Origin: Amphiura filiformis
Lineage: Eukaryota > Echinodermata > Ophiuroidea > Amphilepidida > Amphiuridae
Reading direction: 5' to 3'
Assembly: GCF_039555335.1 (NCBI RefSeq)
Contig: NC_092637.1
Location: 1,736,001-1,800,000, forward strand
Length of the DNA: 64,000 nt
The position numbers were made by a program, and so were the translations under genes. This document shows, piece by piece, positions 1-63,887 of this stretch. Below the pieces are notes generated by a model, which was given only the letters and a program-made list of their open reading frames with translations, ran no database searches and had not been told where the DNA came from. The first letter of the stretch is position 1. The number at the start of each line of letters is the position of its first letter.

Positions 1-3000
1 TAACATAGTGCTTTTTTACCTCTCCTGCAAATGATTGCCTCACAAAACAATATAAAACAAAAGAAATCCAATCACAAAATAATACAAAACATAACATAGT
101 GGGGTTTTTTATCTCTCCTGCAAATGATCGCCTCACAAAACAATATAAAACAAAAGAAATCCAATCACAAAATAATACAAAACATAACATGGTGGGTTTT
201 TTACCTCTCCTGCAAATGATCGCCTCACAAAACAATATAAAACAAAAGAAATCCAATCACAAAATAATACAAAACATAACCTAGTGGGTTTTATTTGTCT
301 CTCCTGCAAATGATCGCCTCACAAAACAATATAAAACAAAAGAAATCCAATCACAAAATAATACAAAACATAACATAGTGGGTTTTTTTTATCTCTCCTG
401 CAAATGATCGCCTCACAAAACAATATAAAACAAAAGAAATCCAATCACATAATAATACAAAACATAACATAGTGGTTTTTTTGTCTCTCCTGCAAATGAT
501 CGCCTCACAAAACAATATAAAACAAAAGAAATCCAATCACAAAATAATACAAAACATAACATAGTGGGTTTTTTTGTCTCTCCTGCAAATGATCGCCTCA
601 CAAAACAATATAAAACAAAAGAAATCCCATCACAAAATAATACAAAACATAACATAGTGGGTTTTTATCTCTCCTGCAAATGATCGCCTCACAAAACAAT
701 ATAAAACAAAAGAAATCCAATCACAAAATAATACAAAACATAACATAGTGGGTTTTTTTACCTCTCCTGCAAATGATCGCCTCAAAAAACAATATAAAAC
801 AAAAGAAATCCAATCACAAAATAATACAAAACATAACATAGTGGTTTTTTTTATCACTTCTGCAAATGATCGCCTCACAAAACAATATAAAACAAAAGAA
901 ATCCAATCACAAAATAATACAAAACATAACATGGTGGTTTTTTATCTCTCCTGCAAATGATCGCATCACAAAACAATATAAAACAAAAGAAATCCAATCA
1001 CAAAATAATACAAAACATAACATAGTGGTATTTTTTTGTCTCTCCTGCAAATGATCGCCTCACAAAACAATATAAAACAAAAGAAATCCCATCACAAAAT
1101 AATACAAAACATAACATAGTGGTTTTTTATCTCTCCTGCAAATGATCGCCTCACAAAACAATATAAAACAAAAGAAATCCAATCACAAAATAATACAAAA
1201 CATAACATAGTGGGTTTTTTTATCTCTCCTGCAAATGATCGCCTCACAAAACAATATAAAACAAAAGAAATCCAATCACAAAATAATACGAAACATAACA
1301 TGGTGTTGTTTTTTTATCTCTCCTGCAAATGATCGCATCACAAAACAGTATAAAACAAAAGAAATCCAATCACAAAATAATACAAAACATAACATAGTGG
1401 TTTTTTTTGTCTCTCCTGCAAATGATCGCCTCACAAAACAATATAAAACAAAAGAAATCCAATCACAAAATAATACAAAAACATAACATAGTGGTTTTTT
1501 TGTCTCTCCTGCAAATGATCGCCTCACAAAACAATATAAAACAAAAGAAATCCCATCACAAAATAATACAAAACATAACATAGTGATTTTTTACCTCTCC
1601 TGCAAATGATTGCCTCACAAAACAATATAAATCAAAAGAAATCCAATCACAAAATAATACAAAACATAACATGGTGGTTTTTTTTTTGTCTCTCCTGCAA
1701 ATGATCGCCTCACAAAACAATATAAAACAAAAGAAATCCCATCACAAAATAATACAAAACATAACAGTGGTTTTTTTACCTCTCCTGCAAATGATCGCCT
1801 CACAAAACAATATAAAACAAAAGAAATCCAATCACAAAATAATACAAAACATAACATAGTGGGTTTTTTTTATCTCTTCTGCAAATGATCGCCTCACAAA
1901 ACAATATAAAACAAAAGAAATCCAATCACAAAATAATACAAAACATAACATAGTGGGGTTTTTTTGTCTCTCCTGCAAATGATCGCCTCACAAAACAATA
2001 TAAAACAAAAGAAATCCCATCACAAAATAATACAAAACATAACATAGTGGGTTTTTTTATCTCTCCTGCAAATGATCGCCTCACAAAACAATATAAAACA
2101 AAAGAAATCCAATCACAAAATAATACAAAACATAACATAGTGGGTTTTTTTTTGTCTCTCCTGCAAATGATCGCCTCACAAAACAATATAAAACAAAAGA
2201 AATCCAATCACAAAATAATACAAAACATAACATAGTGGTTTTTTTTTGTCTCTCCTGCAAATGATCGCCTCACAAAACAATATAAAACAAAAGAAATCCA
2301 ATCACAAAATAATACAAAACATAACATAGTGGTTTTTTTGTCTCTCCTGCAAATGATCGCCTCACAAAACAATATAAAACAAAAGAAATCCCATCACAAA
2401 ATAATACAAAACATAACATAGTGATTTTTACCTCTCCTGCAAATGATTGCCTCACAAAACAATATAAAACAAAAGAAATCCAATCACAAAATAATACAAA
2501 ACATAACATGGTGGGTTTTTTACCTCTCCTGCAAATGATCGCCTCACAAAACAATATAAAACAAAAGAAATCCAATCACAAAATAATACAAAACATAACA
2601 TAGTGGGTTTTTTATCTCTCCTGCAAATGATCGCCTCACAAAACAATATAAAACAAAAGAAATCCAATCACAAAATAATACAAAACATAACATAGTGGTT
2701 TTTTTGTCTCTCCTGCAAATGATCGCCTCACAAAACAATATAAAACAAAAGAAATCCCATCACAAAATAATACAAAACATAACATAGTGCTTTTTTACCT
2801 CTCCTGCAAATGATTGCCTCACAAAACAATATAAAACAAAAGAAATCCAATCACAAAATAATACAAAACATAACATAGTGCTTTTTTACCTCTCCTGCAA
2901 ATGATTGCCTCACAAAACAATATAAAACAAAAGAAATCCAATCACAAAATAATACAAAACATAACATAGTGGGTTTTTTATCTCTCCTGCAAATGATCGC

Positions 3001-6000
3001 CTCACAAAACAATATAAAACAAAAGAAATCCAATCACAAAATAATACAAAACATAACATGGTGGGTTTTTTACCTCTCCTGCAAATGATCGCCTCACAAA
3101 ACAATATAAAACAAAAGAAATCCAATCACAAAATAATACAAAACATAACCTAGTGGGTTTTATTTGTCTCTCCTGCAAATGATCGCCTCACAAAACAATA
3201 TAAAACAAAAGAAATCCCATCACAAAATAATACAAAACATAACATAGTGGGTTTTTTTATCTCTCCTGCAAATGATCGCCTCACAAAACAATATAAAACA
3301 AAAGAAATCCAATCACATAATAATACAAAACATAACATAGTGGTTTTTTTGTCTCTCCTGCAAATGATCGCCTCACAAAACAATATAAAACAAAAGAAAT
3401 CCAATCACAAAATAATACAAAACATAACATAGTGGGTTTTTTTTGTCTCTCCTGCAAATGATCGCCTCACAAAACAATATAAAACAAAAGAAATCCCATC
3501 ACAAAATAATACAAAACATAACATAGTGGGTTTTTTTATCTCTCCTGCAAATGATCGCCTCACAAAACAATATAAAACAAAAGAAATCCAATCACAAAAC
3601 AAAACAAAATGGTTTTTTACCTCTCCTGCAAATGATCGCCTCACAAAACAATATAAAACAAAAGAAATCCAATCACAAAATAATACAAAACATAACATAG
3701 TGGTTTTTTTTATCACTTCTGCAAATGATCGCCTCACAAAACAATATAAAACAAAAGAAATCCAATCACAAAATAATACAAAACATAACATGGTGGTTTT
3801 TTTATCTCTCCTGCAAATGATCGCATCACAAAACAATATAAAACAAAAGAAATCCAATCACAAAATAATACAAAACATAACATAGTGGTATTTTTTTGTC
3901 TCTCCTGCAAATGATCGCCTCACAAAACAATATAAAACAAAAGAAATCCCATCACAAAATAATACAAAACATAACATAGTGGTTTTTTATCTCTCCTGCA
4001 AATGATCGCCTCACAAAACAATATAAAACAAAAGAAATCCAATCACAAAATAATACAAAACATAACATAGTGGGTTTTTTATCTCTCCTGCAAATGATCG
4101 CCTCACAAAACAATATAAAACAAAAGAAATCCAATCACAAAATAATACGAAACATAACATGGTGTTGTTTTTTATCTCTCCTGCAAATGATCGCATCACA
4201 AAACAGTATAAAACAAAAGAAATCCAATCACAAAATAATACAAAACATAACATAGTGGTTTTTTTTTTGTCTCTCCTGCAAATGATCGCCTCACAAAACA
4301 ATATAAAACAAAAGAAATCCAATCACAAAATAATACAAAACATAACATAGTGGTTTTTTTGTCTCTCCTGCAAATGATCGCCTCACAAAACAATATAAAA
4401 CAAAAGAAATCCCATCACAAAATAATACAAAACATAACATAGTGATTTTTTACCTCTCCTGCAAATGATTGCCTCACAAAACAATATAAAACAAAAGAAA
4501 TCCAATCACAAAATAATACAAAACATAACATGGTGGTTTTTTTTTTGTCTCTCCTGCAAATGATCGCCTCACAAAACAATATAAAACAAAAGAAATCCCA
4601 TCACAAAATAATACAAAACATAACAGTGGTTTTTTTACCTCTCCTGCAAATGATCGCCTCACAAAACAATATAAAACAAAAGAAATCCAATCACAAAATA
4701 ATACAAAAACATAACATAGTGGGTTTTTTTTATCTCTTCTGCAAATGATCGCCTCACAAAACAATATAAAACAAAAGAAATCCAATCACAAAATAATACA
4801 AAACATAACATAGTGGGGTTTTTTTGTCTCTCCTGCAAATGATCGCCTCACAAAACAATATAAAACAAAAGAAATCCCATCACAAAATAATACAAAACAT
4901 AACATAGTGGGTTTTTTATCTCTCCTGCAAATGATCGCCTCACAAAACAATATAAAACAAAAGAAATCCAATCACAAAATAATACAAAACATATAACATA
5001 GTGGGTTTTTTTTGTCTCTCCTGCAAATGATCGCCTCACAAAACAATATAAAACAAAAGAAATCCCATCACAAAATAATACAAAACATAACATAGTGGTT
5101 TTTTTTATCTCTCCTGCAAATGATCGCCTCACAAAACAATATAAAACAAAAGAAATCCAATCACAAAATAATACAAAACATAACATAGTGGGTTTTTTTA
5201 TCTCTCCTGCAAATGATCGCCTCACAAAACAATATAAAACAAAAGAAATCCAATCACAAAATAATACAAAACATAACATAGTGGTTTTTTTTTTTGTCTC
5301 TCCTGCAAATGATCGCCTCACAAAACAATATAAAACAAAAGAAATCCCATCACAAAATAATACAAAACATAACATAGTGGGGTTTTTTTACCTCTCCTGC
5401 AAATGATCGCCTCACAAAACAATATAAAACAAAAGAAATCCAATCACAAAATAATACAAAACATAACATAGTGTTTTTTTTTGTCTCTCCTGCAAATGAT
5501 TGCCTCACAAAACAATATAAAACAAAAGAAATCCCATCACAAAATAATACAAAACATAACATAGTGGGTTTTTTTTTTATCTCTCCTGCAAATGATCGCC
5601 TCACAAAACAATATAAAACAAAAGAAATCCAATCACAAAATAATACAAAACATAACATAGTGGTGTTTTTTTGTCTCTCCTGCAAATGATCGCCTCACAA
5701 AACAATATAAAACAAAAGAAATCCCATCACAAAATAATACAAAACATAACATAGTGGGTTTTTTATCTCTCCTGCAAATGATCGCCTCACAAAACAATAT
5801 AAAACAAAAGAAATCCAATCACAAAATAATACAAAACATAACATAGTGGTTTTTTTATCTCTCCTGCAAATGATCGCCTCACAAAACAATATAAAACAAA
5901 AGAAATCCAATCACAAAATAATACAAAACATAACATAGTGGTTTTTTTTGTCTCTCCTGCAAATGATCGCCTCACAAAACAATATAAAACAAAAGAAATC

Positions 6001-6610
6001 CCATCACAAAATAATACAAAACATAACATAGTGCTTTTTTACCTCTCCTGCAAATGATCGCATCACAAAACAATATAAAACAAAAGAAATCCAATCACAA
6101 AATAATACAAAACATAACATAGTGGGTTTTTTGTCTCTCCTGCAAATGATCGCCTCACAAAACAATATAAAACAAAAGAAATCCCATCACAACATAATAC
6201 AAAACATAACATAGTGGGTTTTTTTATCTCTCCTGCAAATGATCGCCTCACAAAACAATATAAAACAAAAGAAATCCAATCACAAAATAATACAAAACAT
6301 AACATAGTGTTGTTTTTTTGTCTCTCCTGCAAATGATCGCCTCACAAAACAATATAAAACAAAAGAAATCCCATCACAAAATAATACAAAACACAACATA
6401 GTGGGTTTTTTTTATCTCTCCTGCAAATGATCGCTTCACAAAACAATATAAAACAAAAGAAATCCAATCACAAAATAATACAAAACATAACATAGTGGGT
6501 TTTTGACCTCTCCTGCAAATGATCGCCTCACAAAACAATATAAAACAAAAGAAATCCAAACACAAAATAAAACAAAACATAACATAGTGGTTTTTTTTTA
6601 TCTCTCCTGC
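1..6610. repeat. 92-bp AT-rich satellite array (satellite A), ~72 copies
   Basis: Head-to-tail copies of a 91-94 bp unit fill the interval and run off the left edge of the window. Each unit has a T tract of variable length, then TCTCTCCTGCAAATGAT, GCCTCACAAAACAATATAA and a segment that reads either TCCAATCAC or TCCCATCAC. Length differences lie mostly in the T tract. Shared private variants (a CTAGTGGG unit at 281 and 3150, a CACAT unit at 446 and 3314, ATCACTTC at 853 and 3712, a shortened AACAGTGG unit at 1763 and 4622) recur about 2.86-2.87 kb apart. Positions 1-2050 are therefore repeated at about 2870-4910 as a higher-order unit of about 31 monomers. Open frames on both strands here come from the unit length being close to 93 and are not genes. 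Confidence 0.97.
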
Positions 6611-9600
6611 AATTATTATTAGAATATGTATCCAATATGCATTAAGTATCTATGCATATGTAATATGCAAAATTATGTATGCATGTAATAGGCCTATGCA
6701 TACTCATGTATATGCAATGTACATATGTTATAGGCAAACTTATCTATATGCATATACAATTTGCATATGTAATGTTGCTATTTATCTAATGCATATATAT
6801 ATATATATATATTGAAATATGCACAATTAATTATCTATCGAATTATTCATAATTGAAAATGCAATATGCACTCATGCAATATGCACTCATAATATGCACG
6901 TTGTAATATGTATATGCATAATTGTCTATGTTTATTCCAATTTGCAATATGCATAGATACTTAATGCATATGCATTTGTAATATGATTACTTATATATGC
7001 ATGTTGCATATGTAATATTATATGAAACATGCATAATAATATGCATATGCAATAATATATCTATGCATATGTTATAAGAAAAATCATAGATGCATATGCA
7101 CGTGTAATATGCATAATCATATTTATTATTCTGTTTAACCACCAGAGATGACGCTATTCCAAGCATATTCTAATTAAATTGCAAAATGAAAATAATATGC
7201 ATAATTACATACATATGCAATATGCATAATTCTTAACTTGATTTACACACGTAATATGCATAATTATCTATGTAGAATATTATAGAATATGTATCCAATA
7301 TGCATTAAGTATCTATGCATATGTAATATGCAAAATTATGTATGCATGTAATATAGGCCTATGCATACTCATATATATGCAATGTACATATGTTATAGGT
7401 AAACTTATCTATATGCATATACAATTTGCATATATAATGTTGCTATTTATCTAATGCATATATATATATATATATTGAAATATGCACAATTAATTATCTA
7501 TCGAATTATTCATAATTGAAAATGCAATTTGCACTCATGCAATATGCACTCATAATATGCACGTTGTAATATGTATATGCATAATTGTCTATTCTTATCC
7601 AATATGCAATATGCATATATACTTAATGCATATGCATTTGTAATATGATTACTTATATATGCATGTTGCATATGTAATATTATATGAAACATGCATAATA
7701 ATATATGCATATGCAATAATATATCTATGCATATGTTATAAGAAAAATCATAGATGCATATGCACGTGTAATATGCATAATCATATTTATTATTCTGTTT
7801 AACCACCAGAGATGACGCTATTCCAAGCATATTCTAATTAAATTGCAAAATGAAAATAATATGCATAATTACATACATATGCAATATGCATAATTCTTAA
7901 CTTGATTTACACACGTAATATGCATAATTATCTATGTAGAATATTATAGAATATGTATCAATATGCATTAAGTATCTATGCATATGTAATATGCAAAATT
8001 ATGTATGCATGTAATAGGCCTATGCATACTCATGTATATGCAATGTACATATGTTATAGGTAAACTTATCTATATGCATATACAATTTGCATATATAATG
8101 TTGCTATTTATCTAATGCATATATATATATATATATTGAAATATGCACAATTAATTATCTATCGAATTATTCATAATTGAAAATGCAATATGCACTCATG
8201 CAATATGCACTCATAATATGCACGTTGTAATATGTATATGCATAATTGTCTATGCTTATCAATATGCAATATGCATAGATACTTAATGCATATGCATTTG
8301 TAATATGATTACTTATATATGCATGTTGCATATGTAATATTATATGAAACATGCATAATAATATGCATATGCAATAATATATCTATGCATATGTTATAAG
8401 AAAAATCATAGATGCATATGCACGTGTAATATGCATAATCATATTTATTATTCTGTTTAACCACCAGAGATGACGCTATTCCAAGCATATTATAATTAAA
8501 TTGCAAAATGGAAAATAATATGCATAATTACATACATATGCAATATGCATAATTCTTAACTTGATTTACACACGTAATATGCATAATTATCTATGTAGAA
8601 TATTATAGAATATGTATCCAATATGCATTAAGTATCTATGCATATGTAATATGCAAAATTATGTAAGCATGTAATATAGGCCTATGCATACTTATATATA
8701 TGCAATGTACATATGTTATAGGTAAACTTATCTATATGCATATACAATTTGCATATATAATGTTGCTATTTATCTAATGCATATATATATATATATTGAA
8801 ATATGCACAATTAATTATCTATCGAATTATTCATATTTGAAAATGCAATATGCACTCATGCAATATGCACTCATAATATGCACGTTGTAATATGTATATG
8901 CATAATTGTCTATGCATATCCAATATGCAATATGCATAGATACTTAATGCATATGCATTTGTAATATGATTAATTATATATGCATGTTGCATATGTAATA
9001 TTATATGAAACATGCATAATAATATATGCATATGCAATAATCTATCTATGCATATGTTATAAGAAAAATCATAGATGCATATGCACGTGTAATATGCATA
9101 ATCATATTTATTATTCTGTTTAACCACCAGAGATGACGCTATTCCAAGCATATTATAATTAAATTGCAAAATGGAAAATAATATGCATAATTACATACAT
9201 ATGTAATATGCATAATTCTTAACTTGATTTACACACGTAATATGCATAAGTATCTATGTAGAATATTATAGAATATGTATCCAATATGCATTAAGTATCT
9301 ATGCATATGTAATATGCAAAATTATGTATGCATGTAATAGGCCTATGCATACTCATGTATATGCAATGTACATATGTTATAGGTAAACTTATCTATATGC
9401 ATATACAATTTGCATATATAATGTTGCTATTTATCTAATGCATATATATATATATATATTGAAATATGCACAATTAATTATCTATCGAATTATTCATAAT
9501 TGAAAATGCAATATGCACTCATGCAATATGCACTCATAATATGCACGTTGTAATATGTATATGCATAATTGTCTATGCTTATCCAATATGCAGGCCCGTA

Positions 9601-12120: not shown

Positions 12121-12185
12121 GGTAATGTGAGTGCGGTGCAAAATCCTCACATTGATTTTACTCCCTAAATCATGCCATAGCTGTG

Positions 12186-12614
12186 TGGCCGTGGGGGCTT
12201 GTGGGTATATAATATTCGGCAAATAAAACTTGCAGCACAAAACAGATGATATGAGTTCCTTTTTAAAACAATTTTATTCAACGAAGATATATATCAATAC
12301 ATGAAGATAACATTCAGAGACACAGACAGGGTGGAGATGCTGACTGGTTGGAAGTCAGTGATGGAGTGAGGAGCACATGTTCAACCCACATGGAAAGGTA
12401 CATATTATGGGATGGGATTACCATGGTTACCAGGTCAAACTTGCAAGGGTGGCACAATTTGGGGGATAGGCACAGGAAATGGTCAAGGTTAGTGGTCAAG
12501 GATGGTGATGTAATGTTAGGTATGGGAAGCAGTTAGGGTCAAAATGGGAAACAAAAATACATGGGGTATGGAAGGCAACACAAGACAAAAACATGAAATA
12601 TTATGACTGTTACA
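12186..12614 (-). repeat. 3' LTR of the CSD retroelement
   Basis: This is the left copy of the direct repeat, offset 2776 bp from the right copy. In element sense it begins TGTAACAGTC and ends at GGCCA. It carries a TATA-like GATATATATC and, just downstream, AATAAA in element sense, the compact promoter/poly(A) layout common in LTRs. Positions 12232-12614 match the right LTR base for base as far as I can read. Only the outer ~46 bp differ, with indels. Confidence 0.88.
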
Positions 12615-12650
12615 TTCACCTCCGCTTTGAGAAATTACGTCCTCGGAATT
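12615..12650 (-). other. Polypurine tract and pol-tail-like remnant
   Basis: On the minus strand the bases just before the 3' LTR are AAAGCGGAGGTGAA, a purine-rich plus-strand primer candidate. Translated, the surrounding minus-strand frame reads EDVISQSGGEC, which resembles the end of some Ty3/gypsy pol frames that run into the polypurine tract. This is the only trace of pol that I see in the element. Confidence 0.6.
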
Positions 12651-12871
12651 TACTATGATATAACAATTTTGTGACATGGTACACACAAATTTTAGAGCAT
12701 AAAACAAAACAGAAATTGCAAGCATTCATTTAAAGTACTTTTTGAAACTCTTGGTCAAAGAATTTCTATCTAAATGCAGTGCAAAAACAAACAACAATGA
12801 CATAAAATGAGTTCGGTCATCAATACCAATCTCGCTCAGGAATGTTTTGAGAATTAAATTTGTCTAGATAC

Positions 12872-13379
12872 GAGATTGCAGTTTTGTGCAATCTCCAAAC
12901 TATTCAACAATAACAAAAGCCTGAACATGTTTCGCGACCATGATCTGCGTTTTTCCTACCAGATCCATGTCTACAACAAAGCCTTAAGGTTTACTATGCT
13001 GCTGAAACATACAAAAAGCGCAAGATATCCGTTTTTCCTACGATATCAATGCATATACATATACAAATACCAGGATGCCCGTTTTTCCTACGACATCCAT
13101 GGCAAATACAATCAACACAAAACACAAGGTATCCATTTTTCTATGATACCAAATACCTTAAAACAGGTAAAATATACTTTGAATGTACCATATCACATAA
13201 ACACAAAATGTAAACAATCTTTAATATCTACTCCGATTTAGAACTGTTAGAATAGTTTGATTCAAATTTAGTTATGATGTATTCCGTTAATCCATGCAGT
13301 TTCAAAAGTCGATCACAGGAGGCAGCTTACTCCAGTTACACACTTCCTTGTTTTAAAAAAAATGTTGTCCACGACATTT
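12872..13379 (-). other. Array of hairpins with conserved loop and covarying stems
   Basis: Four hairpins share one architecture: 12942-12965, 13024-13047, 13073-13098 and 13128-13150. On the plus strand three have the loop CGTTTTTCCTAC exactly; the fourth has the shortened CATTTTTCTAT. The six-pair stems differ but stay paired: GATCTG/CAGATC, GATATC/GATATC, GATGCC/GACATC (one C-A mismatch) and GGTATC/GATACC. An inner two-pair helix (GT/AC, or AT/AT in the fourth) is separated from the stem by one bulged base, leaving an apical loop that reads AGGAAAA in element sense. Two other hairpins with different loops lie nearby: GAGATTGCA/TGCAATCTC at 12872-12895 and AAATGT/ACATTT at 13360-13379. All lie in the 3' non-coding part of the retroelement. 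Confidence 0.85.
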
Positions 13380-13837
13380 GTCACAACGAAAGCATTTACG
13401 GAAAACATAGTCATGATACCAAAACAAAATCAAATCACAAATAAACAAATCCTTAAGAACAATAGCTAGAACCTAAAGCGGGTGTGTCAGAATTGTTTCG
13501 AAAAACTTAAATTTTTCAAGACTGTACTTTTAGGTAAATAATCACAATTTAAGGCAATGATCGTAACACATAAATAATTCGATAAACGTTCAAACATTTC
13601 CAAATTTGCTGTCAAGATCAATCCCTTTTGTGCACGGTCCAAACTATAAAACTGGTTTTGTTTTAGCAGTGAATACATTAAACAATAATTATATAATGAG
13701 TTACTAAAGTGGCCGAAACATTAACAGATAAACAATGATAACAATTATTTTATGTGCAATAAACCATTTAGTATTCAGTCCAGTCAATGAGTCTGCAGTA
13801 TATAGCTAGCCGCAGTTTGTGGCCCTCACGGACTAAG

Positions 13838-13912
13838 CGAGCGCGTAGCGCGAGGAACCGAGCGCGTAGCGCGAGACGTTCAATCGAGCGCGTCAGCGCG
13901 AGGGACGCAACC
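13838..13912. repeat. Three GC-rich CGAGCGCG repeats inside the retroelement
   Basis: CGAGCGCGTAGCGCGAG occurs twice and a variant with one extra base, CGAGCGCGTCAGCGCGAG, once. They are spaced 3 to 8 bp apart in otherwise AT-rich DNA. Each unit has CGCG or GCGC on both sides of its centre and could form a small hairpin. It lies downstream of the cold-shock gene in element sense. Function unknown. Confidence 0.8.
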
Positions 13913-14021
13913 TCTCTGGATAGTATACTAAATAGCAACAGAGCCCGAAAGTAGTGCTATATATAGCAAGATGTAGAGTTCCTAATATTGGATTAAACAG
14001 TTGTCATTTATAAAAGCTGGA

Positions 14022-14807
14022 TCAAAACAAACTAGTAAATTTTTTCCATATGTTTGGTGCTGGAATTACTGAGTCCATAGGATGATGTGTATCAATTGTT
14101 CTGTTCATGTCAACAAAATGATGCAGCGGTCTCACAGTAGTTGGTTGTTTCACAATCGGAGAAGGTGGTGGATCTCGATCATATGTCCTTTTAGTAGCGC
14201 TTGCAGTAGATGGTGATGTACAATTACTTTGTTGGTTAGCAACATGATGATGATTAATAGTTATAAGAGGAGTTCCATTGGATGAACATTCTTGATCACT
14301 GTCTAGTGATGGGTGGGATGACTTTGAACCTGATGTTTGCACTTGCGGTTTATGGAGTTGAGAGTTCTTAATTGTGTTAACACCAGCATATTTACTGCCT
14401 TCAACATGCTTACCACCAGGTCCCAACAACCGTACCGCTTCAAACGTAGGACGTCCACAGTCTACAATGTCAAAATAAACAAGTTCTCCTTCGCCAACAC
14501 TAGGGCATTTGTGCACCGGGTTGGGCTTTGCAATTCCAGATGCGTGTAAGAAAACATCCTTCCCGGAGTCAGTTCTTGTGACATAGCCATGTCCTTTTTT
14601 CACATTAAACCACTTGACAATCCCCTCAACATTTGCTGCAATAGGCACAGGTGTCTGAGGTGTTACAGATGGGGTGGGAATCACACTCGCAGTCTTTGTT
14701 TTCTTACACTTGCAATGCTGATGCAACAGTTTATCCTCTAACTCAAAGACTTTGTTTTCTAACTTGTTCAGTCTTTTTAACAAAATGTCCACTATTGTCG
14801 AAGTCAT
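14022..14807 (-). CDS. Coiled-coil plus Y-box-like cold-shock-domain protein of the LTR element
   Basis: This 261-residue protein is predicted to bind single-stranded RNA or DNA. Residues 6-27 form a short coiled coil with V6, L9, L13, L16, V20, L23 and L27 in a/d spacing, so it probably oligomerises. A Cys-rich HCKCKK patch follows at 31-36. Residues 59-142 are a cold-shock domain with KWFN (65-68), RNP1-like KGHGYVTR (71-78) and RNP2-like DVFLHAS (84-90). The domain ends GPGGKHVEGSKYAG, an extension typical of animal Y-box proteins rather than bacterial Csp proteins. The C-terminal ~120 residues are Ser/Thr/Pro/His-rich and probably disordered. The first ATG lies ~147 bp from the 5' LTR, the position gag would occupy. 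The frame is intact. Capture from a host Y-box gene is inference; a gag-like packaging role is plausible but unproven. Confidence 0.85.
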   Translation of the reverse strand: MTSTIVDILLKRLNKLENKVFELEDKLLHQHCKCKKTKTASVIPTPSVTPQTPVPIAANVEGIVKWFNVKKGHGYVTRTDSGKDVFLHASGIAKPNPVHKCPSVGEGELVYFDIVDCGRPTFEAVRLLGPGGKHVEGSKYAGVNTIKNSQLHKPQVQTSGSKSSHPSLDSDQECSSNGTPLITINHHHVANQQSNCTSPSTASATKRTYDRDPPPSPIVKQPTTVRPLHHFVDMNRTIDTHHPMDSVIPAPNIWKKFTSLF

Positions 14808-14954
14808 GCCAGCTCAATTGATCCTGAAACATACATCCATGTAGTAGCCCTGGCCACGATGGTCACATAAAAAACAAAGCCCCACGTTGGAACGCCAATG
14901 TGACAGATGAGATAAGTTCGTTGTTGAAGAAGGGGAAATTTGTTGTTGACCATG

Positions 14955-15390
14955 TGGCCGTGGGGGCTCGTGGGTATATAAACTTGAGCAAAACTTGAAT
15001 AACACTAGCAGCACAAAACAGATGATATGAGTTCCTTTTTAAAACAATTTTATTCAACGAAGATATATATCAATACATGAAGATAACATTCAGAGACACA
15101 GACAGGGTGGAGATGCTGACTGGTTGGAAGTCAGTGATGGAGTGAGGAGCACATGTTCAACCCACATGGAAAGGTACATATTATGGGATGGGATTACCAT
15201 GGTTACCAGGTCAAACTTGCAAGGGTGGCACAATTTGGGGGATAGGCACAGGAAATGGTCAAGGTTAGTGGTCAAGGATGGTGATGTAATGTTAGGTATG
15301 GGAAGCAGTTAGGGTCAAAATGGGAAACAAAAATACATGGGGTATGGAAGGCAACACAAGACAAAAACATGAAATATTATGACTGTTACA
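14955..15390 (-). repeat. 5' LTR of the CSD retroelement
   Basis: This is the right copy of the terminal repeat and, in element sense, the promoter-bearing one. Positions 15008-15390 equal 12232-12614. The last ~50 bp in element sense (U5 end, 14955-15007) differ from the other LTR by indels and substitutions, though both keep TGGCCGTGGGGGCT and GTGGGTATATAA. Just inside, two bases from the LTR end, is TGGTCAACAAC in element sense, a primer-binding-site candidate. I could not match it to a tRNA. Confidence 0.88.
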
Positions 15391-19049: not shown

Positions 19050-22000
19050 ACCAGGGTTAAAGCCCCTGAAACTACTAACCCGCCACTTCTTCTAATGGGC
19101 CTACAAAGGACAGAGCACCATGACGCTGCAGCCCTAAAGCCAATCGGAAGGTTTGATGGTTCTCCCAGCGCGGGACCAACACCAAGCCGACTCCCAATTA
19201 GACGGGTTGTTGCTGATACACCAAAGGAAAGAGTGGCACTACTAACTACAAAAACAAGTATTGGAATCAGGACCTGGAATGTTAGAACACTGTATCAACC
19301 AGGAACCTGGAAATACTACTTAATCAAATGAAAAACTTTAAATAGGAAATACTGGGAATTGCTGAGACGCATTGGACAGACTCTGGCGAATTAACCATGG
19401 AAGGCTATAAAATCCTTTGCGCAGGAAATGATACCATCCACAGAGCAGGAGTCGCTCTGATTCTCAACAAACAGGCACAAAATGCCCTCCTAGGCTACAA
19501 CCCCATCTCAGCAAGAATAATGTCTGCAAGATTTCAAACTAAGACGGTAGCAATCACCATCATCCAAGTATATGCACCCAATACTGCAGATACTGAAAAC
19601 AGCGTGGACGAATTCTACGACCAACTACAACAGGAAATAAACAAAACGCCCAAAAAAGACATTCTAATGGTAATGGGGGACCTCAATGCCAAAGTAGGAG
19701 ACAACAATTCAGAATGGGGAAATGTAATGGGGAACTATGGATATGGAAACATAAACGCCAGAGGTGAAAAGCTGTTAACTTTCTGCGCCACAAACGATCT
19801 GTGCCTCACCAACACTATGTTCAAACAAAACAAAGCCAGCAGACAATGGACATGGGAATCCCTGATCAAAGAACTCATAATAAAATTGACTTTATTATGA
19901 TCAGCAGTAAATGGAAAGGATGCATTACAAACTCAAGGAGCTTTCCAAGTGCTGACGTGGGATCCGACCACCAACTTGTACTAGCAACATCCAACTGAAA
20001 TTCAAGACTAAACCTAAACCAAAATATCCCAAGCGATATGATGTCTTCAAACTCAAGACTCAAGCTACAAGAGAGAGGTATGAGGTCGAAATTGGGGGTA
20101 GTTTTGCCCCATTGCTTGACGATGAAGACACTGACATCAATGACTCATGGGAAGCAATAAAAGCAGCTTTCAGCAACACATCAAAGAAGATACTGGGAAA
20201 CAAAAAGGCTCAAAAGCCTAAACCCTGGATAAGCGAGGAGGTCATCAGTTTAAGTGAAGAACGTTCAAAGGTCAAGCAGGAGAAACTGATAGATCCTAGC
20301 AAAAAGACAAGGTACAACTACCTCACTAGGGAAATCAAACGGAAAACCAAAGGCTGCAAAGACATTTGGCTGAAAGACCTATGCAGAAATGTAGAGAATG
20401 CACACCAGGCTGCCAAGTCAAAAGAGGTGTATTCTACAATAAAGAAAATCACTAACAAACCAACCACCAAAATGCAGACTGTAAAGAACAAAGAAGGAAA
20501 GATACTAACTGAACTTCAAGATGTGAAAAACCGGTGGAGAGAAAATTATGAACAACTTTACAACAACCAAAACCCTATTAATGAAGAGATAGTAAACAGC
20601 ATCCCACAAATGCCAAGCACAGAAGAGGAGCCAGACATTCTGAAGGATGAGATTACCAGTGCCATAAAAAAGCTATCTGATGGCAAAGCACCTGGATATG
20701 ACAACGTGACAGCTGAAGAGCTTAAGGCATCGGGTGAAGCAGGTGTCAAAATCCTGCACCGGCTGTGCAACAAAATATGGAAGACTGGTCTTCCCAGAGG
20801 ACTGGGGAAAGGCCGTAATAACACCCATATTCAAGAAAAAAGACAAGCTAGACTGTGCAAACTACAGGGCATCAGCCTACTGAGCCATGCAGGGAAAGTG
20901 TTCACCACCATTCTCCAACGTAGAATCATGAAAAAAGCAGAGGAGGTCATCTCAGAATCCCAAGCTGGCTTTCGACCTGGAAGATCAACAGTCGACCAAC
21001 TTTTCACCTTACGTCAAATCGCAGAGAAATTCCTTGAGAAAGGCAAGAACCTGTATTGCTGCTACATTCACTTTGAAAAGGCCTTCGACACCATATGGCA
21101 GGATGGGCTGTGGAAAGCAATGGGATTCTTCGGCTTCCCAAGTAAGATCATCAGGCTCCTCAAAGCACTATACAGTATATCAAACAGTGCTGTGCGTGTG
21201 AATGGCGACCTGACTGAGTGGTTTCACACAACAGTGGGAGTGCGGCAAGGGTGTGTGATATCCCCACAACTCTTCAACATACTTCTTGAACTTGTTATGC
21301 TGTATGCAACCCATGACACCGACATAGGAATATTGATCCAGGGACATATGATCTCAAACCTCCGCTTCGCTGATGACATTGTCCTGCTAGCTGACTCTGC
21401 TAGTGACCTGCAGACTGCAGTGGACAACGTCTTTCGTAGCAGCTCGAACCTCGGACTGAAGATCAATATTGGTAAAACCGAAGTACATGTTATCAGCAGC
21501 CAAAAAGTCAACCTTAACATCAACATAAATGGCAATCTGCTCAAGCAAGTGGATGAGTTTGTGTACCTGGGAGGCACCATATCTCAGAAGGGCACAAGCA
21601 GAGAAGACATCAAACACAGAATAGGAAAAGCTCTAGGAGCAGTCCAAAGACTTCATAGCATATGGAATGCAAAGGACATTCAACAGGCCACCAAAATTGA
21701 ACTATACAGAGTCCTAGTACTATCTATCCTAATGTATGGAGCCGAAACCTGGACCATCAAGAAAGAAGACGAAAATCGACTTCTAGTCTTTGAAATGATG
21801 TGCTTGAGAAAGATCATGGGCGTATCACGACTGGACAGAATACGCAACACCATAATACGGGACACACTTGGACTGAACAACACAATCATTGATAAAATCA
21901 CCCAAAAAGGATCCGCTTCTTTGGTCACATTCAGCGAATGCGAAATGACAGATACCCCAAAATTGTGATAGAGGGCAATGTACATGGAAAAAGACCACGT

Positions 22001-31354: not shown

Positions 31355-33067
31355 ATGAATGAACCAGAATATTTATTGGATCATTCATTTTACAAAATTA
31401 CCTTTGCGTTAGAAGCAATGATTTTCGGTATAGAAAACTACGAAGAGCGTACATTTATATCGTCAAAGCAACATGTTGATGTACCAACACACAAAAATGG
31501 GCATACCCTTGATCTACTGATTACCAGGGAGACTGATAACATTATTTCTGACATCTCAGTTCATCATGATCTCCCATCCGATCATGTAGCCACTGCCTGT
31601 CCTCTGGACATGTCGCGCCCAGAACCTGTGAGACACGAGACAAGCTTCCGCAAACTACGTGATATTGACTTTTCGCAGTTCAGGAAAGACATAAGATCAT
31701 CCTCACTTGTATCTAATCCAGCCTCTGACCTGGGTGCTCTAGTTGAGCAGTATGACAGTGTTCTATCTGAACTTTTAGATATCCATGCACCCATTGTAAC
31801 TCGTTCCATCACGCTCAGACCCCATGCCCCCTGGTACGATGAAGCTCTGCGTGAACGTAAGCGAGCTAAACGTCGTTCCGAACGGAAATGGGTGTCATCA
31901 GGACTCGAAGTATACAAGCAGTTGTACCAGGAAGAATGTCGCAATTATAAGGAAGCGCTTGAAACGGCTAAAACAGACCACCACAGAGCCCAAATTAATG
32001 ACTGTGAACAGGGAAAGCTTTTTCAACTTGTTGACAAACTCTCAGTTGCAAAAGCAGCCAAAGTTTTGCCACTGCATGATTCTGCTCGCAATCTCGCTAG
32101 TGAATTCTCCACATTCTTCAATGAGAAAGTCACAAAGGTTAAGGATGAACTTGATAGGTGCAGCAAGTTTGAGGATGTTGTTCCCAACATCCCACACGTG
32201 CACTCAGTGCCTCAGCTCAGCGAGTTTACTAAGGTGTCTCACGAAGAAATGCAGGAAATCATCACCAGCTCCAAGCCAAAGTCCTGTCCACTAGACCCGA
32301 TACCATCTTGGGTATTGAAAAAGTGCCTTGATGAACTGTTACCCACCATCTGTGACATTGTTAATCACTCCATTACATCTGGTGAAGTACCTGCTGCCTT
32401 CAAGGAAGCTCGCCTGACACCACTGATCAAAAAACAGTCCCTTGATCCGGAATGTTTAAAAAACTATCGTCCGGTGTCAAACCTATCCTTCCTGTCAAAG
32501 ATCACCGAGAGATGTGTTGCTAAACAACTTACCCAACACCTTGATTCCAACAATTTACACGGTAATCGACAGTCAGCATATCATAAGAACTACTCTACAG
32601 CACTCACACGTGTAGCTAATGACATTCTGCAAGCCATGGATGCTCATGGAGAGGTGGTTCTGGTCCTTCTTGATTTGACAGCTGCCTTTGACACCATCGA
32701 TCACGGCATCCTTCTGCAAAGACTCACAGACAGATATGGGATTAACGGTTCTGCGCTTCAGTGGTTCCAATCTTATCTTTCAAGTCGTTTTCAAGCAGTT
32801 GTGATCGATGGTGTCCAGTCAGAGTTTTCACCACTCAGTGATGGTGTCCCACAGGGGTCTGTGCTCGGACCCCTGTGTTTCTCTATGTACACAGCACCGC
32901 TCGAAGACATTATCAGATCTTTTGACGGCATCCAACTTACGGAAATCCGAAAAGGTTGCATCCAGCTCCTTGATTGGAGGCGCAACGTAATGGTTGGCCG
33001 TGACAATCCGAACAGAAAACATGGTTGGCGATCATGCTCTGAGCTGTGTAATGTAAGGCTATGTTAA
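31355..33067 (+). pseudogene. L2/CR1-like LINE fragment: endonuclease C-terminus plus partial RT
   Basis: A continuous 570-codon frame carries the end of an AP-type endonuclease (HTLDLLITR at 50-58, SDH at 75-77), a linker and the first part of a reverse transcriptase with KNYRPVSNLSFLSK (369-382), LLDLTAAFDTIDH (438-450, motif A Asp at 440) and GVPQGSVLGP (497-506). Homology stops at about residue 527 (near 32938), just before the FADD/YADD motif should occur. The last ~43 residues are unrelated. The first ~38 residues also do not look like endonuclease. The fragment is thus truncated at both ends and cannot be an active RT, yet has no internal stop. It is most likely a fairly young dead insertion; a chimeric host transcript is a less likely alternative. 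Confidence 0.8.
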
Positions 33068-44466: not shown

Positions 44467-44692
44467 AGGGGAAAGAAGAATTACGCATCGCACACTAGCA
44501 CATTTAAACATGAATTTACAAATGGAAACATAACATGCATAGGCAGATATACCAGAGAAAAAACTCCGGACATACATGCCTGTGCGGGGACTTGGACCCC
44601 AGACCTCTCGCTTGTCGGGCGAGCGCTCTAACCACTGAGCTACACAGACTGTCCCTGATAAACAGGACTCAAGTCTGGTACTTATAGATATG
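44467..44692 (-). mobile_element. tRNA-derived SINE-like insertion
   Basis: The right arm of the foldback shows the empty site: an uninterrupted inverse of ACTAATAACACACTGG. The insert is flanked by ATAACACAC (44458-44466 and 44693-44701), a 9-bp target duplication of retroposition type. On the minus strand it holds a tRNA-like core followed by ~110 bp of unrelated body. Sequence upstream of the tRNA core (44650-44692) is unusual for a SINE, whose tRNA head normally comes first. Confidence 0.8.
44579..44649 (-). tRNA. tRNA-like cloverleaf, GAC (Val-type) anticodon; likely pseudo-tRNA
   Basis: The minus strand folds as a full cloverleaf: acceptor GTCTGTG/CACAGGC (one G-U), D stem GCTC/GAGC, anticodon stem CTCGC/GCGAG with loop CCGACAA, and T stem TGGGG/CCCCG with loop TCCAAGT. 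The box A-like TAGCTCAGTGG is good; the box B-like GGTCCAAGTCC departs from GGTTCGANTCC at two places. C at position 33 instead of U and the altered T loop argue against a functional tRNA. It is best read as the RNA polymerase III head of the SINE. Confidence 0.75.
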
Positions 44693-45016: not shown

Positions 45017-46120
45017 TTAAAGTGAAGTTTTCGCTTGGTGTTCCGTTTCCTGGTCTGCCTCAGTCATTGTCGTGGACTCAAAGCGACCTCTTCCAAAAGA
45101 TTTACTGCCGATCGAAAATGCCTTCATAAATGCCTTCCGATATTCAGGATTACTAACATTATAAATAATGGGGTTCACCGTTGAATTAATAAGGAAAGCT
45201 ACTCGACCTAACCAGAGTAGTACAAAGTCGATATTTGGACCATAAAATGGTTCGCTAAAATCTCTATTATTAACCAGATTTGAGAACTCAGAAATGTTAC
45301 TGAACTGAATCGGCGAAAGACACATGAAGAATACCACAGCGTTTATGCACAACATTCTCGCTACGTGACTCCTTGCGGTCGACGATTTGCCTTTCGGTTG
45401 CTGACGCTTGTTAAGTTCCTGGACAATTCTGATGTATACTACGACATTTATAAGCAAAGCGATTGAGAACTCACATAGGTCAAACAAATCCAGGAATATA
45501 AAAGACCAGTGAGCCCATTTGCACATTTTTATTGTATCTGGAAAATTTCCGAATGGTTCTTGGTCTGGCCACACTACACACTGTCTACTTTCGCTAACGA
45601 CTGACACAGGTGATGCCACAACGATGATAAGTATAACCCACGTCATTGCAGTTAGTTTCATATTAACACTCAGCGGATTAGAGCCAACGTTGCGATGACG
45701 ATAATGTATGGGCATACATACTGCTTGGTATCGTTCAACTGCTACCAATGTTAGAAAGGCAATTGACGCATAACTGAAAACGTAAATAACCAGTAATGAT
45801 ATCGCACAACCGGTAGCTTTAAACGGATAGCCACTCTGAATTGGCGATTTGGTGTAAGTCAACACGTAATTCAATGAAGTTACAAGTAGCAAGACACCGT
45901 CTGCAACAGCTAAATTTGCTAGGTAGAAGTTAGTGGCAGTTCTCATGTTGTTAACACGATATATTACGAATAGAAAAGCCATATTTGTGGTCAATCCAAC
46001 TAACATGATAGATGGAACAATGATGAGAATAAAAACACGCTCAAAATTGCTGTAAATGTATCCTTGTGCCTCTTCAAGTGTGAGATTTCTACAATCGTTG
46101 GTTGCATTTAAAGTTGCCAT
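45017..46120 (-). CDS. Class A (rhodopsin-family) G-protein-coupled receptor, orphan, peptide-receptor-like
   Basis: A single-exon 367-residue frame with seven hydrophobic segments makes a plasma-membrane receptor signalling through G proteins. Class A landmarks are present: N46 (TM1), LAVAD with D74 (TM2), C105 at the top of TM3, E129-R130-Y131 at its foot, W161 (TM4) and N316-P-I-I-Y320 (TM7). C181 can form the disulfide to C105. N5 and N12 are glycosylation sequons in a short extracellular tail with no signal peptide. TM6 has CLSP (267-270) where CWxP is usual, so the toggle Trp is Leu. TM5 lacks the usual Pro. The Ser/Thr-rich tail from ~338 offers phosphorylation sites. I cannot name the ligand; a neuropeptide-type receptor is the best guess. 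The frame is intact. A foldback element begins 19 bp past the stop codon, so the 3' UTR must include it or be very short. Confidence 0.92.
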   Translation of the reverse strand: MATLNATNDCRNLTLEEAQGYIYSNFERVFILIIVPSIMLVGLTTNMAFLFVIYRVNNMRTATNFYLANLAVADGVLLLVTSLNYVLTYTKSPIQSGYPFKATGCAISLLVIYVFSYASIAFLTLVAVERYQAVCMPIHYRHRNVGSNPLSVNMKLTAMTWVILIIVVASPVSVVSESRQCVVWPDQEPFGNFPDTIKMCKWAHWSFIFLDLFDLCEFSIALLINVVVYIRIVQELNKRQQPKGKSSTARSHVARMLCINAVVFFMCLSPIQFSNISEFSNLVNNRDFSEPFYGPNIDFVLLWLGRVAFLINSTVNPIIYNVSNPEYRKAFMKAFSIGSKSFGRGRFESTTMTEADQETEHQAKTSL

Positions 46121-62633: not shown

Positions 62634-63887
62634 TTAGTTGTTGTAAATTTGCACCACGCAGTTCTGCAAGTTGAATGTGGGTGCTTTTGAAGTTGAGGTG
62701 ATGTTGACAGGAACATGACTATTTGTTGTTGAACTTGAGGTGATGTTGACAGGAACTGTCATGACGTCAGGGTTGTTATCACGCATAATTTGCTCTAGCT
62801 CAGGAATTTCCTGACTATTGCTCTGAGTAGGCTTAGATGATGATGGTTCTTCTGCGGGTGGACCGATCGACATTGTCGCAGCAATCGCTTCACTCATTTT
62901 ATGCTTGGTTTCCTTGGTGGTTCTGGCATAGTGTTTTATACTCGTTTCCGAGTGGTGACCGGATACTGTCATTATATCACGGTCTTTAAATCCTGCATTT
63001 TGCAGTGAGGTGACGCTCGTTGCTCGCAAACAATGGTTGGTAAATGACCGTGCAGTACCGGCCCTCAATGAAATGTCCTTCATTTTACTACCGATACTAC
63101 CATACTGAGGCTGCAGATTTGGCTTTGGGTTTTGGCTTTTGCAAAAAGCACTCACAGCCAGGGTTCAGTTTGTCTATGTACAGTAAAATGTGTTAACAGG
63201 GCAACGTGGACCAATACATGTTGACAACATGACCCCACCCTGGCTCTTCTCCTGGTCATCTCCGCGGTTATTCTTGGTGAGTGTATCTTTGAGAGTAATC
63301 TTGTTTTCCTCCTTCCTCGCTAATTTCAAAGCTGTCGCGTGTCATCTCCCGCAGGTTCTCTCGTCCTCTATTGCAAAAATAGAGCATAACATCCAGGAAA
63401 ACCTTGTCTTGCAGACCTTGTGGATCACTCAAATCCAGAGATTCTTGAATAATGGCCATATCTTCAGCGGATATAGCTTCCTTGTGTGTTACAAGTCCTT
63501 TCCCTTTCTGTTTCAGTGTTGCTGAAAAGCACTTGAAAACTCTCGACGAATTGGCAAAGTCATCATGCTTTATGACATCCACTTTCTTAGTATTCAGGAA
63601 ATGACGTTGTATCCAAATCGGATGGCCATCATGGACTTCTTACAGTATAATGTTCCATTTTGTTGCCGTGCACCGCAATAAAACTTCTGTAGCAATGCAT
63701 CAAGCTCCGAATTCGGCAGGTTTGTAGCGTCTGTCAAATCCATGTCTATCACTTTCAAGTAATCTTCGGAGATTTTTAGAGCGTATTTGATCTGGTTTTT
63801 GGTATTTTTGCTGTCCGCACCATCGACAATCTCTTGCAACCCAACATCGTCAAGCAGTTGGAACCTTATATTTTCAGATTCGGCCAT
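62634..63887 (-). pseudogene. Crypton-like tyrosine recombinase, frameshifted
   Basis: Three overlapping-order pieces read on the minus strand give a tyrosine recombinase that would cut and join DNA through a Tyr nucleophile. 63594-63887 starts with ATG and carries an N-terminal helical domain (LDALLQKFY, then GTLYCKKSM). 63268-63582 carries the catalytic-core start with NRGRENLREM, supplying the first Arg. 62634-63155 carries HCLRAT (His-x-x-Arg), GHHS and the Tyr of IKHYAR, then a disordered Ser/Thr/Asn-rich tail. The layout matches Crypton-type and related animal DUF3504-like proteins. Single-base shifts near 63620, 63290, 63190 and 63125 break the frame, so this copy is dead unless the assembly is wrong. 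No terminal repeats are expected for Cryptons and none were seen. Confidence 0.75.

Follow-up and report, generated by a model that had tools for sequence, protein, structure and literature searches.

Covarying hairpins with a conserved purine loop in an LTR-bounded element of Amphiura filiformis that encodes a Y-box-type cold-shock protein

The stretch of DNA analyzed here (the window) covers 64,000 nucleotides of the genome of the ophiuroid Amphiura filiformis (GCF_039555335.1, contig NC_092637.1, positions 1,736,001 to 1,800,000), and all coordinates below refer to it. Its first part (1-6612) is a large tandem array with about 71 copies of a 92-bp unit; at 6634-9546, short tandem arrays with many TATGCATA-like palindromes follow at a period of about 660 bp. 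A non-LTR retrotransposon with an endonuclease fragment and a 618-aa reverse transcriptase (RT) ORF is located at 19397-21968, another RT ORF at 31355-33067, and a fragment of a tyrosine recombinase of the phage-integrase family, which we take to be perhaps of the Crypton or DIRS type, at 62634-63155. The minus strand carries a tRNA-Val at 44577-44649 with the anticodon GAC, which is unusual for an animal. An animal-like 7tm_1 receptor was found at 45017-46120, with 20 matches that included A. filiformis (37% identity), Acanthaster planci (30%) and others at up to 74% identity.

The hairpins studied here lie inside an LTR-bounded element of 3,207 nt whose sense strand is the minus strand. A 300-nt direct repeat was first observed around the hairpins, and its full alignment led to two direct terminal repeats with TG...CA ends, as expected for an LTR retrotransposon. 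The 5' LTR (14953..15390, minus strand) has 438 nt and runs from TGTAACA to CCACA, while the 3' LTR (12184..12614, minus strand) has 431 nt and includes AATAAA at 12278-12273. The two are identical over 383 nt from the U3 (high-coordinate) end, and the remaining approximately 55 nt at the U5 end (12184-12238 compared with 14953-15007) differ by seven substitutions and a 7-nt gap. Because both U5s are copied from one template in simple reverse transcription, recombination or conversion with another element may have been involved. A polypurine-tract-like AAAGCGGAGGTGAA (12615..12628, minus strand), which is purine-rich (12/14 purines) and not pure, abuts the upstream end of the 3' LTR. The candidate primer-binding-site position (14942..14952, minus strand), where TGGTCAACAAC was read directly, follows the 5' LTR without a gap and begins with TGG; its remainder fits no tRNA known to us. 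The flanks of the element differ (ACACA and CAGCT) if the LTR end is CCACA, and ACACA is found at both ends if the LTR ends 3 nt earlier. As the target-site duplication is ambiguous and no tRNA fits the primer site, we base the assignment to the LTR class on the two terminal repeats and the purine-rich tract. When the element is read on the plus strand, no TGG directly follows the first LTR, and a 13-nt purine run (14926-14938) stops 14 nt short of the second LTR. A TATATAA located 22 nt into both repeats on the plus strand favors that reading, and we gave it less weight than the signs on the minus strand.

Two further features of the element were recorded. TTGACCA occurs twice in the LTR, at sense positions 116-122 and 129-135, and is complementary to the 7 nt with which the sequence downstream of the 5' LTR (14942-14952) begins, a weak lead to the idea that the LTR might serve in self-priming of the Tf1-like kind. 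Between the ORF and the hairpins, at 13766-13933, lies a foldback (MITE-like) insert that contains GC-rich repeats GAGCGCGTAGCGCGAG and whose inverted arms, 18 nt long, are 83% complementary. Beyond the element's own two LTRs, no second copy was found in the 64-kb window, and no further copies were found in viral contigs. A search for further copies with the full-length ORF protein gave no match among 242 candidates. The same search with the cold-shock domain gave three matches among 158 candidates, two Y-box-like proteins and one two-domain cold-shock domain (CSD) protein, none of which had the layout of the element ORF when read through.

The only long ORF of the element is intact and encodes 261 aa on the minus strand (14022..14807). 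A Y-box-type cold-shock domain extends over residues ~56-142 (Pfam CSD, E 8.3e-13), and the closest proteins in the PDB were Y-box proteins, with zebrafish YB-1 (Y-box protein 1) aligned over 87 residues at E 1.6e-21 and LIN28 matched at only about 1e-4. The GSKYA end typical of the Y-box type was present in the YB-1 alignment. The N-terminal region (~2-30) is leucine-rich and was predicted as a helix at residues 2-30 in a low-confidence structure model that also contained strands (mean pLDDT 50.4). Hydrophobic residues occupied seven of eight a/d positions in the best of seven registers. The protein probably has an N-terminal coiled coil and is probably oligomeric, as judged from the model and the heptad pattern. 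Members of the Y-box family have a long C-terminal tail in which basic and acidic clusters alternate; inspection of the translation by eye revealed no such clusters in the tail of the ORF (residues 143-261), which is rich in S, T, H and P. To search for gag and pol, 20 stop-free stretches of at least 55 codons were collected in six frames, of which 18 were compared with Pfam and two were second-LTR repeats of scanned ones. No gag, protease, RT or integrase was recognized, and the element was taken as non-autonomous because the CSD was the only domain above its curated cut-off among the scanned frames. The strongest of the remaining matches, to a gamma-thionin profile (E 0.00062), scored 20.4 bits and so stayed below its cut-off of 25.1; we attribute it, and weak matches below cut-off to UL92, Asp5 and UBA profiles, to chance in short frames.

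The hairpin array occupies 12936-13155, between the ORF and the 3' LTR, and has four copies within 220 nt, all read on the minus strand: HP1 (12970-12936), HP2 (13052-13018), HP3 (13102-13068) and HP4 (13155-13124). Each of them is in the aligned set and matches the covariance model described below. They share one architecture, namely a 6-bp stem, a two-pair inner helix, an apical loop and, where the stem meets the inner helix, a single G bulged out of the 3' arm. The apical loop is AGGAAAA in HP1 to HP3 and AGAAAA, with one deletion, in HP4, and the inner helix is GU/AC except in HP4, where it is AU/AU. The hairpins are spaced by 82, 50 and 53 nt; HP2 and HP3 are part of a 50-nt repeat with 74% identity, and the alignment of the units showed spacers that are heavily diverged. 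A fifth hairpin, unrelated to these four, has a perfect 9-bp stem and a CAAAAC loop (12872..12895, minus strand); it was found as an inverted repeat, in local folds and in the minimum free energy (MFE) fold of the whole array, and may be part of the structured region too.

An earlier note had singled out these four hairpins for their common loop and for 6-bp stems that differ and stay paired, and all four were present where it had placed them. In their alignment, 32/32 cells (eight pairs in four hairpins) hold a standard pair, and four of the eight pairs have changed on both sides. Three of these are stem columns 2, 4 and 6, for which two-sided change had indeed been claimed: pair 7/28 goes from A-U to G-C, pair 9/26 is A-U, C-G or G-C among the four hairpins, and pair 11/24 goes from C-G to G-C. 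The fourth is pair 12/22, which shifts from G-C to A-U and accounts for the reported change of the inner helix from GT/AC to AT/AT. In one further pair the change is one-sided (U-A becomes U.G in HP3), and the remaining three are invariant. All four hairpins retain the bulged G (column 23), in agreement with the conserved one-base bulge of the note. Unprompted, RNAalifold recovered the identical eight pairs.

Several null comparisons were made for this pattern. None of 500 shuffles reached the observed percentage of paired cells, number of two-sided cells or covariation score, while the number of pairs with two-sided change was matched by 2/500 and the number of further pair types by 35/500. 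Slid registers were paired at 18.8 to 53.1%. When the five left and six right substitutions were placed at random, all cells remained paired in none of 300,000 trials. In the window, the loop form with six flanking bases per side is confined to the four hairpins, each with 6/6 flanks paired. Bacterial and archaeal contigs, in which the loop word GTAGGAAAAACGNNNATC has at least 119 occurrences, served as a null of unrelated DNA, where the motif might have turned up at random. Among the 119 matches listed, none had the 6-bp stem; the distribution of paired flanks peaked at 2-3 of six, and three matches reached 5/6. A covariance model built from HP1 to HP4, as the note had proposed, was scanned over the 64 kb and found the same four with no fifth copy. 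By construction, the four have E values of at most 2.1e-8; elsewhere in the window, the best match had an E of 0.11. The pairing geometry alone is common, with 99 minus-strand matches in the window, many of them in a tandem array. What sets HP1 to HP4 apart is that loop, bulge and matched stem changes occur together. The covariation is strong and at the same time shallow, since HP1 to HP4 are paralogues inside one element copy. We consider the existence of a selected RNA structure very probable. The broader claim of the note, that structure is under selection in an element RNA whose apical loop reads AGGAAAA, is supported, with most of its testable points fitting; the type of the element and its gene are additions to what the note described. 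The place of the array inside an LTR-bounded element is in line with it, as are the ORF, the purine-rich tract and the poly(A) signal, all on the minus strand, which is the AGGAAAA strand.

The minus strand is probably the RNA strand, because the single non-Watson-Crick pair of HP3 reads U.G there, against A.C on the plus strand. The predicted energy was lower on the minus (sense) strand for all four hairpins, whereas the shuffle z-scores were better on the plus (antisense) strand for three of them. Sliding 120-nt sense windows had a z below -2 in 5/52 cases, four of which fell within 12811-13170, and four antisense windows with z below -2, between 12784 and 13203, overlapped or adjoined the array. 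As windows on both strands pass, thermodynamics mark the array as structured and leave the strand undecided. The whole array (309 nt) folded with a z of -3.12, and none of 100 shuffles was as good. In its MFE fold, HP1 had the consensus shape and the fifth hairpin was formed, the HP3 stem appeared without its inner pairs, the HP4 stem had another inner register, and HP2 was not formed and its bases paired otherwise. When folded in isolation on the sense strand (41-mers; 47 nt for HP1), only HP1 adopted the full consensus shape as MFE, HP2 and HP3 lacked the two inner pairs, and HP4 folded otherwise.

A conserved loop and bulge on stems that vary and are always paired is the signature of an apex recognized by a protein or by another RNA. 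Our main reading, to which we assign a probability of about one half, is that HP1 to HP4, located in the 3' UTR of a non-autonomous LTR retroelement of ~3.2 kb that encodes a coiled coil and Y-box-type CSD protein, form a multivalent RNA recognition array that serves in ribonucleoprotein (RNP) assembly, packaging or control. Each hairpin would offer the unpaired purines of the AGGAAAA loop along with the bulged G, any stem sequence would do provided that it pairs, and a binding protein would read the loop and bulge on a stem that is a mere scaffold. As four copies lie within 220 nt, binding would be multivalent, and neighboring copies could give it high avidity. Such binding might bring the element RNA together in an RNP, in which it would be packaged, reverse-transcribed or controlled as an mRNA. 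The hairpins, their covariation, the LTR frame and the ORF are observed, and from them we infer the binding, its outcome and the binder. The latter could be the cold-shock protein that the element itself encodes, predicted to be oligomeric, or the nucleocapsid of a Gag supplied by an autonomous partner. The protein of the element, which appears to bind RNA and is probably oligomeric, would be the simplest candidate, and this analysis gave no sign of a Gag from an autonomous relative. Coating and packaging of mRNAs is a known activity of Y-box proteins. According to a review, YB proteins favor A- and C-rich sites (PMC7226217), and the hairpin loop is A-rich. The CAUC/CANC motif given for YB-1 in that review (PMC7226217) is lacking in the loop. 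The broadened form YAYC occurs five times in HP1 to HP4 (137 nt), with approximately 3.3 expected from its frequency in the element. This is no clear enrichment, so that we place less confidence in a link to the cold-shock protein than in the selected RNA structure. A bolder version, which we consider rather unlikely, is that an LTR retroelement has swapped the RNA-binding role of Gag for a captured Y-box CSD with an oligomerizing coiled coil, and that the protein would know its own RNA by the co-evolved array of bulged G's and AGGAAAA loops. The combination of coiled coil and CSD would then resemble the layout of LINE ORF1p.

Other explanations also involve RNA. A location after the last ORF and before the 3' LTR, together with a repeated structured motif, would suit a nuclear-export or RNA-stability element that recruits a host export factor, like the CTE and RTE of simple retroviruses and IAPs. 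However, the CTE has an internal-loop architecture, and this was not seen in the array; no Rfam family reached its gathering score there, and an intronless ORF would need no special export of unspliced RNA. We regard this explanation as unlikely. RTE and CTE are reported to be RNA export elements (PMC1363727), and the array is like them a structured cis element in retroelement RNA. Since the array follows, on the same strand, an ORF of the Y-box type, the hairpins could also be autoregulatory sites of a host Y-box gene whose mRNA was captured together with its 3' UTR. Approximately 0.87 kb and the foldback insert separate the ORF from the array, however, and the Y-box matches in the PDB span the domain alone, with the tails excluded, which makes such a capture quite unlikely. 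Regulatory small RNAs with a common loop, cut by Dicer from hairpins on the ORF strand, are highly improbable, since usual Drosha or Dicer substrates need stems longer than eight pairs and the part conserved here is the loop.

The array could, on the other hand, be a recent foldback duplication without function, in which a unit was copied in tandem and its pairing has not yet been lost. The 50-nt repeat of HP2 and HP3 and the closeness of the four copies would agree with this, but the spacers are heavily diverged while each stem change keeps its pair, which never happened for all cells when substitutions were placed at random, and we view this duplication as very unlikely. Four more candidates were set aside. 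The repeats were judged non-coding because their spacings are not all multiples of three, and the plus-strand ORF of 121 aa had no Pfam match. An array of binding sites at the DNA level, for which the gypsy insulator is a model, is disfavored because a DNA-binding dimer needs no complementarity at variable positions. Loop-loop or long-range pairing is disfavored as well, given that the perfect loop complement TTTTCCT is absent from the sense element (TTTTCC occurs once), so that an intramolecular RNA partner is unlikely. Finally, the array matched no known RNA family in Rfam, where a tRNA alone reached its gathering score in the window.

The recognition array can also be compared with signals and elements described elsewhere. 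Retroviral packaging signals are clusters of hairpins that expose unpaired G's to nucleocapsid, mostly near the 5' end of the RNA. The array resembles them in its neighboring hairpins, purine loops and exposed G's, with binding being putative here, and differs in its location towards the 3' end. The cold-shock domain aligns to YB-1 over 87 residues as in Y-box binding proteins, from which the element protein departs by its predicted N-terminal coiled coil, its S/T/H/P-rich tail and its coding inside an LTR element. TRIMs with tRNA or 5S parts are described as non-autonomous LTR elements that carry foreign sequence (PMC10886601). The element shares with the TRIM/LARD type (Helenus, Ajax and Cassandra; PMC10886601) the two LTRs, a candidate PBS position and a PPT-like tract between them, the lack of recognizable gag/pol and a presumed dependence on a partner. 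Those TRIMs (PMC10886601) are short and have tRNA or 5S sequence in their LTRs, whereas the element described here has 3.2 kb, a cold-shock ORF and an internal hairpin array. Among the matches listed in a search of titles and abstract openings of the open-access literature, none described an LTR element with a cold-shock gene or with an array of covarying hairpins.

To our knowledge, the cis-acting RNA signals of invertebrate LTR retroelements have been little described. It is unusual for such a signal in an LTR retroelement of an animal to be indicated from sequence only, by covariation between the repeats of one element. Should the cold-shock protein indeed be the binder, a mobile element would have taken over a host RNP protein along with an RNA address tag.
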